DNA of 37,057 nt from a virus. Positions 14,456-20,286 of this stretch are shown piece after piece (the stretch's first letter is position 1; each line of letters begins with the position of its first letter). The position numbers were made by a program, and so were the translations under genes. The stretch spans positions 1 to 37,057 of the IMG/VR virus record IMGVR_UViG_3300030943_000085. One strand, 5' to 3'. The notes beneath the pieces were generated by a model. That model did not search any database. It was not told the origin of the DNA and saw only the letters and a program-made list of their open reading frames with translations.

Positions 14456-14722
14456 TTATCGTGTTATTTCAATTTTAAAATCAGAACATGCCCAACTTGA
14501 TTTCTCTTGAAAAATATACAACCAAAATACTTTTACAACTAAGTTTCCAACTTGTATGGTGAAACTAACTGGTCGGTCATACTCATCCAATGAATCAGGG
14601 ACTGTTTTATCTGTAATTTGTTGATTCACTAGATTAAACCATTCCTTGAATTCTGGTGATTGTCCTGAAAGATTTAGTTCGGGATTAAATTCTATGTTAT
14701 CGGTTATCTTTATCAATTGCAT
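14456..14722 (-). CDS. Hypothetical tail-associated protein
   Basis: The 88-residue protein is not recognised. Helical first half, beta-rich second half with V-K-V-F-W-L-Y-I-F. It overlaps the collagen-like fibre gene by 10 bases and lies 1 base before the large fibre gene, so it could be a fibre connector or assembly factor. That is inference from position only. Confidence 0.5.
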   Translation of the reverse strand: MQLIKITDNIEFNPELNLSGQSPEFKEWFNLVNQQITDKTVPDSLDEYDRPVSFTIQVGNLVVKVFWLYIFQEKSSWACSDFKIEITR

Positions 14723-15537
14723 ATAATTAAAGCATTAGCATTTGAATATCCTGTATTTATAGTAATATCATTAATAACCAATTCTGTGTTTGCAGTCAAT
14801 GTTACTCCAACCAAAGTATTATGATCATAGCTTGTTGCTCCAATACTAGCAGAAATTGATACGCAATTGCTCATAAGCAAAACACTTCCAAGTGTCTTAT
14901 CAGTAGGCCACTTAAACCTAACAGGATAGGTTATACCATTCGTTCCTTGTTTGAAAAGTGAAATTGTAAGGGGTGCGTTTGTACCGTTAGTTCCGTTTGT
15001 TCCATTAGTTCCTTGTGCTTTCACACCTGTATCTGTCGTACCAATAAACCAGTTACCATTTATGCCAATATGAGGAGTAACACCATCAGTTCCGGCAGAA
15101 CCCACATCACCATCCGCTCCTTGTGCTTTAACACCGGTATCTATTATGCCTATATACCAGTTACCATTTACGCCAATATGAGGAGTAAGGCCGTCAGTTC
15201 CGGCAGCACCATTTACTCCTTGAGCTTTTATACCTGTGTCAGTTGTGCCAATAAACCAGTTACCATTTACGCCGATATGGGGAGTAATACCATCAGCACC
15301 CGCTGCACCATCCGCTCCTTGAGCTTTTACACCGGTATCGGTTGTACCTATATACCAATTACCATTTGTGCCAATATGAGGAGTAACGCCATCAGTTCCC
15401 GCAGCCTCAGCTACCACATCCAATATAGCATCAGCTGCATCGGCCACACGCTGATGCGTGTTGGCATACTTTTCTGTCTCATTCCGTATTTGTGCCCATT
15501 TTACACGGGCAGTGGCAATTAAAGAAGCTAAGCTCAT
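14713..15537 (-). CDS. Collagen-like repeat tail fibre protein
   Basis: The 274-residue protein has a helical N-terminus (about 1-48), then four tandem units of about 33-36 residues built on T-P-H-I-G-x-N-G-N-W-x-I-G-T-T-D-T-G-x-K-A-Q-G, joined by short Gly-x-y collagen-like linkers (G-A-D-G-A-A-G, G-T-N-G-T-N-G-T-N). The C-terminal 70 residues form a separate beta domain. This layout is that of a trimeric phage fibre. Tandem DNA units of about 100 bp underlie it and could vary in number. Confidence 0.75.
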   Translation of the reverse strand: MSLASLIATARVKWAQIRNETEKYANTHQRVADAADAILDVVAEAAGTDGVTPHIGTNGNWYIGTTDTGVKAQGADGAAGADGITPHIGVNGNWFIGTTDTGIKAQGVNGAAGTDGLTPHIGVNGNWYIGIIDTGVKAQGADGDVGSAGTDGVTPHIGINGNWFIGTTDTGVKAQGTNGTNGTNGTNAPLTISLFKQGTNGITYPVRFKWPTDKTLGSVLLMSNCVSISASIGATSYDHNTLVGVTLTANTELVINDITINTGYSNANALIICN

Positions 15538-17450: not shown

Positions 17451-18002
17451 TTAATAAAAAGTGAAATCAAATGTGAAATCAAATGTCCGATAATCAGTAT
17501 CAATCGTTTCAATAATTCCGGATGCAGGATATAAACCTTTTTGTTTGTAAAAGGCTACTACCATTGTTTTTAACGCAGCTATACGCATTAGTTTCGTTCC
17601 GGTTGCCGGCATATCAGTAACATCATATCCATTAACCTCAGCCAATTGATAGGCCGCTTCAGCAGAACCGCATTCCTGAATAGCCAGATCAAAAAAACTT
17701 TGATTTTCAAGAACTGGTATGAAATTACCTTGCAACACATTTTCATCACGGATAATAACGTCAGCGGCCATAACTACACGCTCAGCAGCTTCAATTAATG
17801 CCGTTGCCGGTTGAATGCCTTTATTTTTGTAATAAGCCGCGATATCAGCATTAATCACGTCCACAATGTCCAAAAAGTCACCCGCCTGTAAATCATCCGT
17901 CACATTCAATCCATTTACAACAGCTAACTCATAAGCCGCCTCAGCAGAACCGGCGCAAATAACAGCCAGGTCGAAAATGGATTGATGTTCAAGAACTATC
18001 AT
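17451..18002 (-). CDS. Tandem LysM-like baseplate protein
   Basis: The 183-residue protein contains two copies of a domain of about 90 residues: each begins V-L-E-[HN]-Q-S-x-F-D-L-A and continues with G-S-A-E-A-A-Y-[EQ]-L-A-x-V-N-G. This is the pattern of a degenerate LysM-like domain. T4 gp53, a baseplate wedge protein, has a LysM-like domain, and the gene lies next to the J-like gene, so a baseplate role is favoured over peptidoglycan binding. The ATG overlaps the preceding stop. Confidence 0.6.
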   Translation of the reverse strand: MIVLEHQSIFDLAVICAGSAEAAYELAVVNGLNVTDDLQAGDFLDIVDVINADIAAYYKNKGIQPATALIEAAERVVMAADVIIRDENVLQGNFIPVLENQSFFDLAIQECGSAEAAYQLAEVNGYDVTDMPATGTKLMRIAALKTMVVAFYKQKGLYPASGIIETIDTDYRTFDFTFDFTFY

Positions 18003-18571
18003 TTGAAAATGCTCAAAAGGTTTTTAAACTTTGTTACTATCGAAATAAACCAATTTGATTTACGGTAAAAAAGAACTACAATGATTATGATCACAACAAC
18101 TACTATATAAATCCAAGCAGGTGTTTTGGTGGACGTAGTAGCGATAACCTTTTGATTATCGCTACTTTTTACGCTTGTTTTATTATTTACTGACGAGTCG
18201 GATTTATTGTTCGACTTATCAACCAGGTTAGTTTTATTTTGCTTTTTTTCCTGCAGGTTTTTAGCTTCATTCCTGGCAATACCACGCTTTGTGGTAGTCA
18301 CCGAAGTAACATGCTGTTTTCCTACCGAGTCAGGAGCCGAGTAATTAGTTGTAGTCGTTTCTTCGTTCACTATTTCAGATACTTGACCTTTGTCAATTGT
18401 CAGTTTTGAACTGTCAACTTTCAACGAAATATCATTATTATGAACATTCGACGCTTTTACTGTGCTATTTTGCGTCGTATTTGTACGAGATACCGATTGG
18501 GCTTGCTTCACAGTTTTGCATCCCACCACGGTAATGGCTATCATTAGCAATAATATAATTTTAGTTTTCAT
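17999..18571 (-). CDS. Lipoprotein with C-terminal transmembrane helix, candidate u-spanin
   Basis: The 190-residue protein has an N-terminal lipoprotein signal with a V-V-G-C lipobox (Cys18) and one strong transmembrane helix near residues 153-169 (W-I-Y-I-V-V-V-V-I-I-I-I-V-V-L-F). The middle is low-complexity, Ser/Thr/Asn/Lys-rich. An outer-membrane lipid anchor plus an inner-membrane helix on one chain is the hallmark of unimolecular spanins, which fuse the two membranes at lysis. It overlaps the holin-like gene by 11 bases, as expected for a lysis cassette. Confidence 0.6.
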   Translation of the reverse strand: MKTKIILLLMIAITVVGCKTVKQAQSVSRTNTTQNSTVKASNVHNNDISLKVDSSKLTIDKGQVSEIVNEETTTTNYSAPDSVGKQHVTSVTTTKRGIARNEAKNLQEKKQNKTNLVDKSNNKSDSSVNNKTSVKSSDNQKVIATTSTKTPAWIYIVVVVIIIIVVLFYRKSNWFISIVTKFKNLLSIFK

Positions 18572-19109
18572 TTTTCTTCGGTTTTATGTTTGACAATAAA
18601 TTAGACCAACCTCCCTGAATAGCTTCGATAATGGCTGTTTTCTCCCGTCCTTTTAGAACAGATACGTTTTCGAGAATAGAAGTTACATATTCGACCAGGA
18701 AGCCGGTGAGACAAGCGACAAAAACAAAACTAAAGAAGCCATAAGCTGCTATATCTATTAAGTTTTTAGAATCCTGAAATTCACGCTTGAATGCATTAAT
18801 TATATAAAGTATAGCCAACCAAACAAGTATCTTGATGACACATCTTGAAAATTTTAATGACTCAAATTTATCTCCCTTTCGCTTAGATGCTTTTATGCCC
18901 GTACTAACCTCAATTAAAATGGCAAAGAACATGGCAATAGCCAAAGCCGGTGTAATACCAAACAAATAGTTGATCACACCGGATAGAGCCGAAATAGTCA
19001 ATACAGCACCGTGTAACTGATATTTGTACGATGGGAAAATTGATAACGCGAAATCTTCAAATGAATTCCAGTCGTATGTCTTCAGGAAATTTGTTACAAA
19101 TTGTCTCAT
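18561..19109 (-). CDS. Phage holin family protein
   Basis: The 182-residue protein has several hydrophobic spans and the typical stretch A-I-A-M-F-F-A-I-L-I-E-V-S-T-G-I-K-A-S-K followed by a charged loop, as in the phage holin_4/toxin-secretion holin family. It would form the inner-membrane lesion that starts lysis. It lies next to the candidate spanin and endolysin genes. Confidence 0.7.
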   Translation of the reverse strand: MRQFVTNFLKTYDWNSFEDFALSIFPSYKYQLHGAVLTISALSGVINYLFGITPALAIAMFFAILIEVSTGIKASKRKGDKFESLKFSRCVIKILVWLAILYIINAFKREFQDSKNLIDIAAYGFFSFVFVACLTGFLVEYVTSILENVSVLKGREKTAIIEAIQGGWSNLLSNIKPKKNEN

Positions 19110-19121
19110 ATAGATTATCTT

Positions 19122-19403
19122 TTATTGTTCAAATACTCTAGTTGACCAACCTTTGTAATACTTCCACTGTGTAGGCTTCTTTTTGCAAATACGGTAGTAT
19201 TTCAGCAACCTTTCATACTTATAAATTCGTACAAAGTCGCGAGAGCTCATTACAGTTCTTTGATTGAGAACCTTAATACTATCATTTGCCTTTGCAAGTT
19301 TCTGCCGATAGTAAGCCGTGGAATCACTTCCATGACTTACCTGGGCATGAACACAAGAAAACAAACAATAAACAAAACACAACAAAAACACTATCTTTCT
19401 CAT
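19122..19403 (-). CDS. Secreted protein with endolysin C-terminal segment
   Basis: The 93-residue protein starts with a signal peptide (R-K-I-V-F-L-L-C-F-V-Y-C-L-F-S-C-V-H-A), either cleaved after V-H-A or lipid-modified at L-F-S-C. Its C-terminal half R-I-Y-K-Y-E-R-L-L-K-Y-Y-R-I-C-K-K-K-P-T followed by Q-W-K-Y-Y-K-G-W resembles the end of the peptidoglycan-binding domain (PG_binding_3) of GH108 lysozymes. The neighbouring GH108 protein lacks exactly this segment. An alternative reading is a small spanin-like protein. Confidence 0.55.
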   Translation of the reverse strand: MRKIVFLLCFVYCLFSCVHAQVSHGSDSTAYYRQKLAKANDSIKVLNQRTVMSSRDFVRIYKYERLLKYYRICKKKPTQWKYYKGWSTRVFEQ

Positions 19404-19433
19404 ACACTTAATTCCTTTTTAATCTTCCTAATG

Positions 19434-19470
19434 TACCCTTTCAAAGGGGACGAGCGAAGCGGAGGGGTTA
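19434..19470. repeat. G-rich palindromic repeat element, copy A
   Basis: CCCTTT-CAAAGGGG, then GCGAAGC, then GGAGGGGTT: an intergenic element with inverted arms. The TAA stop of the lysozyme gene lies at its edge (19468-19470). A near-identical copy lies at about 20251-20286. Confidence 0.7.
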
Positions 19471-19881
19471 TACCAATGAATTTAATTTCGTTACTAAATC
19501 CTGAGACACAATGCCTGTCATAGCCAAACCCACAATCTCCTGGGCGCGTTTTATGCCGGCTGCAGTACCTTCAAGAACTGCAGCATCTACTAATATGTCT
19601 GCAATTGATTGATCACGGATACCATCGCCACCTACTTTATCCCAAAAATTCAACTTATAGAATCCAGTCACCAGATCGCTGAGAGTTGGATTAGTATAGC
19701 AGTTCTTTGGGAAGTTCTTACCATCTTTCTTACAAATGTCTATAATTGCCCAACCCGACCATTTCGGCCAGTATACACGGCTAATACCCTTGTATGTTTC
19801 ACCACCGGCATCATCCGGATCATTCACATACCCGCCTTCATTAAGAAGGACTTTTGCGATTGCTTTCTTGTAGTCTGCCAT
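19468..19881 (-). CDS. GH108-family endolysin (N-acetylmuramidase), C-terminally short
   Basis: The 137-residue protein begins with the GH108 pattern A-K-V-L-L-N-E-G-G-Y-V-N-D-P-D-D-A-G-G-E-T-Y-K-G-I, the probable catalytic acid being Glu15. It cleaves the glycan backbone of peptidoglycan during lysis. The C-terminal PG_binding_3 domain stops early, after G-I-V-S-Q-D-L-V-T-K-L-N-S-L-V, about 40 residues short of the usual family end. The stop codon lies in a G-rich repeat element, and the missing end appears to be encoded by the next gene. No signal peptide is visible. Confidence 0.8.
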   Translation of the reverse strand: MADYKKAIAKVLLNEGGYVNDPDDAGGETYKGISRVYWPKWSGWAIIDICKKDGKNFPKNCYTNPTLSDLVTGFYKLNFWDKVGGDGIRDQSIADILVDAAVLEGTAAGIKRAQEIVGLAMTGIVSQDLVTKLNSLV

Positions 19882-20227: not shown

Positions 20228-20250
20228 AATCTATTTTTTCCTTCTTACTG

Positions 20251-20286
20251 TCCCCTTCCAAAGGGGACGAGCGTAGCGGAGGGGTT
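20251..20286. repeat. G-rich palindromic repeat element, copy B
   Basis: CCCCTTCCAAAGGGGACGAG continuing with GCGTAGC and GGAGGGGTTT. It is near-identical to the copy at 19434-19470 and lies between the gp25-position gene and the spike gene. Confidence 0.7.

Follow-up and report, generated by a model that had tools for sequence, protein, structure and literature searches.

A GH108 endolysin divided between two genes of Bacteroidota phages suggests a lysozyme that becomes whole in the envelope only when lysis begins

Is a phage lysozyme that stops short of its last helices the remnant of a broken gene, or one part of an enzyme whose other part is made as a separate protein? The question is raised by two neighboring genes in the window, the whole 37,057-nucleotide stretch of viral DNA, an IMG/VR record, analyzed here. 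Its source phage is Mu-like, with an integrase-core transposase, an AAA protein at the MuB position and a Mu portal protein (E 6e-54). The first-pass annotation had proposed that an endolysin is split here into a catalytic half and a secreted C-terminal half, and had correctly given the coordinates of the two genes, their lengths of 137 and 93 residues and the 64-base gap between them. The features are as follows.

19468..19881, minus strand: catalytic half, GH108 lysozyme, 137 aa (PF05838, E 1e-18)
19404..19467, strand (.): 64-base gap, a repeat element inserted in an ancestral ATGA overlap (DNA alignment with L004, L019, L022 and L008)
19122..19403, minus strand: partner gene, exported C-terminal half, 93 aa (PHROG_315, fused-C-half profile, purifying selection)
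19341..19403, minus strand: partner signal sequence, residues 1-21, MRKIVFLLCFVYCLFSCVHAQ (hydrophobic N terminus; type I or lipoprotein type)
19251..19340, minus strand: partner variable spacer, residues 22-51 (length varies among partners)
19122..19250, minus strand: partner C-half, residues 52-93 plus stop codon (second half of PG_binding_3, equivalent to the final two helices of a one-piece enzyme)
18561..19109, minus strand: holin (Phage_holin_4_1; PF05105, E 7e-10), the next cassette gene after the partner
17999..18571, minus strand: candidate unimolecular spanin (N-terminal lipobox, VVGC; C-terminal membrane segment)

On the minus strand the lysozyme is followed, after the 64 bases, by the partner, the holin and the spanin candidate, the last of which also matches the Rz-like spanin family PHROG_9385 (E 0.003). 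Homologues of the holin are present in 12 and those of the spanin candidate in 20 of the 64 split loci described below. Two further proteins of the window contain internal repeats: a 183-aa protein (17451-18002) consists of two LysM-like segments of ~90 residues (58-base repeat D2, 78%), and a probable tail-fibre-like protein (14713-15537) has four repeats of ~33 residues (DG-TPHIG-NGNW-IGTTDTG-KAQG) and Gly-rich collagen-like linkers.

The lysozyme covers the GH108 model PF05838 end to end (68 bits against a curated cut-off of 21.2), and its E15, D24 and T29 are conserved in the GH108 alignment. E15, the catalytic glutamate of the E-G-G motif, is found in 42 out of 43 rows of split lysozymes, the remaining row having a gap, and in all 71 rows of fused ones. 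A Pfam search detected no PG_binding_3 in this chain, the C-terminal helices being located on the adjacent exported protein, and the lysozyme has neither a signal nor a membrane segment. Modeled alone with AlphaFold2 (pLDDT 86), it displays the same helices as the natural one-piece homologue L049 (pLDDT 95) up to the junction, where it stops; its last helix comprises residues 127-135, and the chain does not continue beyond the third helix of the substrate-binding (peptidoglycan-binding) bundle. Foldseek matched the model to the GH108 structures 7dnp, 2ikb and 2is5, and the L049 model also matches GH108 structures. Thus, the lysozyme does end early, as had been proposed.

The match of the single partner sequence to PG_binding_3 is weak (positions 41-74 of 76; Pfam E 0.15, one-genome search E 0.007), and homology was therefore tested at the level of families. 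In the endolysin family PHROG_315, the lysozyme corresponds to positions 333-446 and the partner to positions 443-485, end to end, so that the split is seamless. An HMM constructed from the C-termini of one-piece GH108 proteins only was searched against 7304 ORFs and recovered 111 out of 111 partner ORFs (redundant set) with a median E of 3e-9. Its other above-chance matches were more partner copies whose lysozyme is cut off the contig (L012, L033, L154, L182 and L187), and the best unrelated ORF had an E of 0.67. Profile-profile comparison of the partners with the fused C-termini gave a probability of 98.4% (E 6e-15). These two results show that the homology is not due to chance, and the earlier reading of the downstream gene as a signal peptide followed by the missing end of PG_binding_3 is confirmed. 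A sequence search of the PDB with the partner alone produced chance matches only. Separately, the exported half weakly matches a baseplate wedge family, PHROG_20454 (L063:4797-5216 and window partner 19122-19403, E 0.004 and 0.009), and because of this match the exported hairpin may also occur in virion proteins.

The N termini of the two products differ. According to a simple hydrophobicity rule, 63 of the 64 partners have a signal-like N terminus, as do 120 of 506 other ORFs of the same loci and none of the 64 short lysozymes. A loose lipobox is present in 33/64 partners, part of which are probably lipoproteins, and the spacer ranges from ~20 to >100 residues. Some partners are lipoprotein-like, with coiled-coil-like spacers, and are found beside holin and spanin genes. 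Translation starting internally, at the conserved Met that precedes the C-half, could yield a cytoplasmic C-half; it was considered and rejected as a general feature. This residue is Met in 34 out of the 49 partners in which the motif was found and otherwise Ile, Leu, Val or Thr, none of whose codons is a usual start; helix capping explains a hydrophobic residue at this position.

The position of the junction bears directly on what each product can do. On the L049 model, with helices at residues 117-125, 128-149 and 151-166, it falls at residues 126-127, in a short inter-helix loop. In TtsA, the substrate groove is formed by the C-terminal helix bundle and lined by I116, D118 and Q120 together with Q164, N166 and F169; D118 binds diaminopimelic acid, and the D118A, I116D and N166D substitutions abolish function (PMC6996933). 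Mapping through the alignment with Sen1395 places the 116/118/120 group on the catalytic half and the 164/166/169 group on the exported half. Since the cut runs inside a single helix bundle, neither product is a complete binding domain. Moreover, exported halves retain an amide (Q/N) in the N166 column in 61/64 cases and an aromatic residue (Y/F) in the F169 column in 63/64. Both this retention and the lining of the TtsA groove from the two sides of the junction count in favor of reassembly of the halves, which is also the simplest reading because the cut passes through one helix bundle.

The rebuilt groove would differ from the standard one, as the D118 column is occupied by T, N or S in 39 out of 42 scorable split lysozymes; in the scorable fused ones it is Asp in 60/60. 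In the window lysozyme this column corresponds to about 19516-19518. Across the split family, the DG..G..T loop, which is the diaminopimelic acid site of TtsA, is replaced by TG..[STD]..L, and this replacement suggests that split lysozymes have a different way of binding the wall. Alternatively, the exported half could serve as an anchor or antenna, binding peptidoglycan or membrane by itself and concentrating an independently active catalytic half, with no shared fold being needed. The partners do bear a spacer and often the loose lipobox, and the catalytic half might work alone, given that in TtsA residues 1-92 form a catalytic domain of their own (PMC6996933). However, the cut lies within the helix bundle and not between catalytic and binding domains, neither piece amounts to a whole binding domain and the catalytic half has lost the diaminopimelate-binding Asp, all of which makes this alternative unlikely.

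If the two products are halves of one enzyme, each should be found with the other and not with an intact homologue. Relatives were gathered by partner queries (including genome contigs) and by lysozyme queries, with 396 Bacteroidota genomes included. The resulting 355 loci contain 240 distinct GH108 ORFs, of which 65 end at most 12 residues from the junction and 174 continue for at least 30. A separate C-half ORF is present in the locus of 64 out of the 65 short lysozymes, that is, of all 64 intact ones, and a real separate C-half accompanies none of the 174 full-length GH108 proteins. The 64 distinct pairs thus bear out the proposed division, with the catalytic half in the cytoplasm and the C-terminal half exported. 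The possibility that 137-residue GH108 proteins are complete in relatives was also checked, and no intact short GH108 lacks a separate half. To avoid bias of the sample by the partner, loci retrieved by lysozyme queries only were counted: the partner is present with 28/28 intact short genes and absent from 165/166 full-length ones, the remaining one being a chance match. Within the Bacteroidota genome sample, the split kind accounts for 1/20 matches, and a further genome (G002) has one fused and one split GH108 copy.

Several loci were set aside on inspection. L132, an apparent exception, is a 59-aa fragment, and the ‘partner’ in L257 is a 61-aa chance match (E 0.06). L332 was rejected as a short lysozyme without partner, being a one-piece GH108 gene (L332:389-900) interrupted by an in-frame TGA at precisely the junction, beyond which its frame continues intact; the stop could reflect an error, a pseudogene or an intermediate on the way to splitting.

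Co-inheritance and export would also be expected of a protein that occupies a docking site outside the cytoplasm, so that the exported half could in principle be a periplasmic inhibitor or decoy capping the catalytic half against premature or superinfecting lysis. The enzyme would then permanently miss its C-terminal helices; no short lysozyme has another source of them, and conserved substrate-groove residues are retained on the exported half. We regard this role as very unlikely. Recruitment of the partner to another lysis job, such as spanin-like disruption of the outer membrane with the PG_binding_3 half acting only as a wall anchor, fits the lipoprotein-like members, the coiled-coil-like spacers and the holin and spanin neighbors. 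Nevertheless, strict co-occurrence with truncated lysozymes would be unexpected for an independent job, and a separate unimolecular-spanin candidate already follows the holin in the window, with homologues in 20 loci. Such recruitment therefore seems very improbable indeed.

The remaining possibility is that the split is accidental. The lysozyme TAA is located at the margin of a repeat copy (19417-19469), as the first-pass annotation had observed, and it had offered breakage of the gene by the repeat, followed by rescue through fusion to a signal peptide, as one explanation. This copy and a second one (20234-20286) are 53 bases long and 85% identical, each located in a gap between lysis-region genes. 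However, the same split is found in 64 pairs, in 33 of which the genes overlap by ATGA, with stop and start shared and no repeat. In these relatives the junction reads ..TTGGTATGAAAAAGATAG.., ATGA being common to stop and start. In the window and in L004, the element (AACCCC..TTAAGTGTAT) separates TTGGTAT from the continuation of this sequence, GA..AAAGATAG, and both protein ends are kept. The element therefore entered a pair whose genes were already separate and ancestrally overlapped by ATGA, which places the split before the repeat insertion. Furthermore, the same split occurs in the annotated genomes of crAssphage and MA9V-1, and dN/dS is far below 1. Breakage by the repeat and an assembly artefact are thus both refuted. 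The insertion into the former overlap apparently duplicated GTAT, which suggests that the 53-base repeat is a small mobile or REP-like element. RNA folding of the 64-base gap was no better than that of shuffled sequences. A -1 frameshift fusion across the ATGA overlap was rejected as a general mechanism because in crAss-like phages the order is reversed, the partner being upstream of the lysozyme, sometimes with other genes between.

Both halves are under strong purifying selection, with dN/dS in close pairs of 0.05-0.16 for the catalytic half and about 0.03-0.08, where estimable, for the exported C-half. At equal divergence of the catalytic half (50-60% bin), C-half identity is 67% in split versus 41% in fused enzymes, and the divergences of the split halves track one another (r 0.82, 0/1000 permutations). 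In the first GH108 tree, 42 out of 43 split rows form one clade (SH-aLRT 99), with MA9V-1 placed outside without support. A constraint uniting all split rows was not rejected either in this tree (AU p 0.85) or in a larger one (49 rows, p 0.95), the constrained tree having the higher likelihood in both tests, and the altered binding-site loop is also present in MA9V-1. On these two grounds, a single origin of the split in the GH108 tree is compatible with the data, though not proven. Phages of very different kinds, Mu-like, crAss-like and Chryseobacterium jumbo, have the pair: it is found in annotated genomes of crAssphage and of the 213-kb Chryseobacterium phage MA9V-1, and a Mu portal was detected in only 5 of the 34 records tested, many of which are fragments.

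Periplasmic reassembly of the halves is the most likely reading. We consider it probable that the pair constitutes a two-gene, two-compartment GH108 endolysin, the halves of which complete one groove in the periplasm after holin opening. Lacking its last two helices and, consequently, half of the peptidoglycan-binding groove, the catalytic chain would stay in the cytoplasm, whereas these helices, made as a separate protein, would be Sec-exported to the periplasm on the spacer. Upon opening of the inner membrane by the holin, the catalytic chain would enter the periplasm, dock on the waiting hairpin, complete the groove and cut the wall. We infer that activity depends on this docking, in which case the split would be a safety lock that keeps the active enzyme within the envelope of the cell in which it was made. 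We also lean, somewhat more cautiously, toward the general proposal that in Bacteroidota phages, including crAssphage, a gut virus, export of the last two helices leaves the cytoplasmic lysozyme unable to function, and that lysis starts once the holin opens and the separated parts can come together as one fold in the periplasm.

Lysis timing is usually ascribed to holins and to SAR segments on the catalytic chain. If the proposal is true, a fold shared between compartments represents a further way to lock a lytic enzyme, used across Mu-like phages, crAssphage relatives and a jumbo flavophage. The lysozyme and its partner would also offer a natural split-protein pair, and for such phages, expressing only the annotated lysozyme gene may yield an inactive recombinant GH108 endolysin. 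The crAssphage proteins gp80 (lysozyme) and gp82 (membrane protein), annotated as separate proteins, are members of the split system and would gain a joint, testable function. The pieces had already been noticed separately, since GenBank describes gp82 as one that ‘contains peptidoglycan-binding domain’ and labels both cr3_1 proteins ‘secretion activator protein-like’. The open-access literature searched contained no description of gp80/gp82, or of the split pair, as two halves of one enzyme.

The GH108 family of both parts and two-gene endolysins are known; within the open-access literature, the division of the fold between compartments appears to be new, and to our knowledge no other two-gene endolysin has it. 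One-piece GH108 enzymes (PF05838 + PF09374; TtsA/Sen1395, Brucella SagA, NMB1012, ElyA1/ElyA2) have the same catalytic domain, conserved Glu and C-terminal helices, and the two split chains together cover the whole family profile; the split system differs in that a protein of its own, which is exported, supplies the last two helices, and in the altered binding-site loop (DG..G..T) of its catalytic half. PlyC of a streptococcal phage likewise divides catalysis and binding between two proteins (PlyCA/PlyCB) encoded in a single lysis cassette, just as split GH108 has them on two genes that are present together for all 64 intact short lysozymes. PlyC subunits lack signal peptides, are whole domains and target Gram-positive cells, whereas split GH108 is cut inside a domain and its halves are destined for different compartments, almost all partners being signal-like. 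CTP1L and LysIME-EF1, which use internal starts in one gene, similarly include an extra C-terminal wall-binding polypeptide in the enzyme, but they combine a full-length chain with a C-terminal copy, and the split system has no full-length chain. Finally, in SAR and signal-peptide endolysins, including gp22 of phage Mu (PMC9239132), activity is likewise controlled by compartment, but these enzymes export the catalytic chain itself, whereas in split GH108 the signal is found on the non-catalytic half only.
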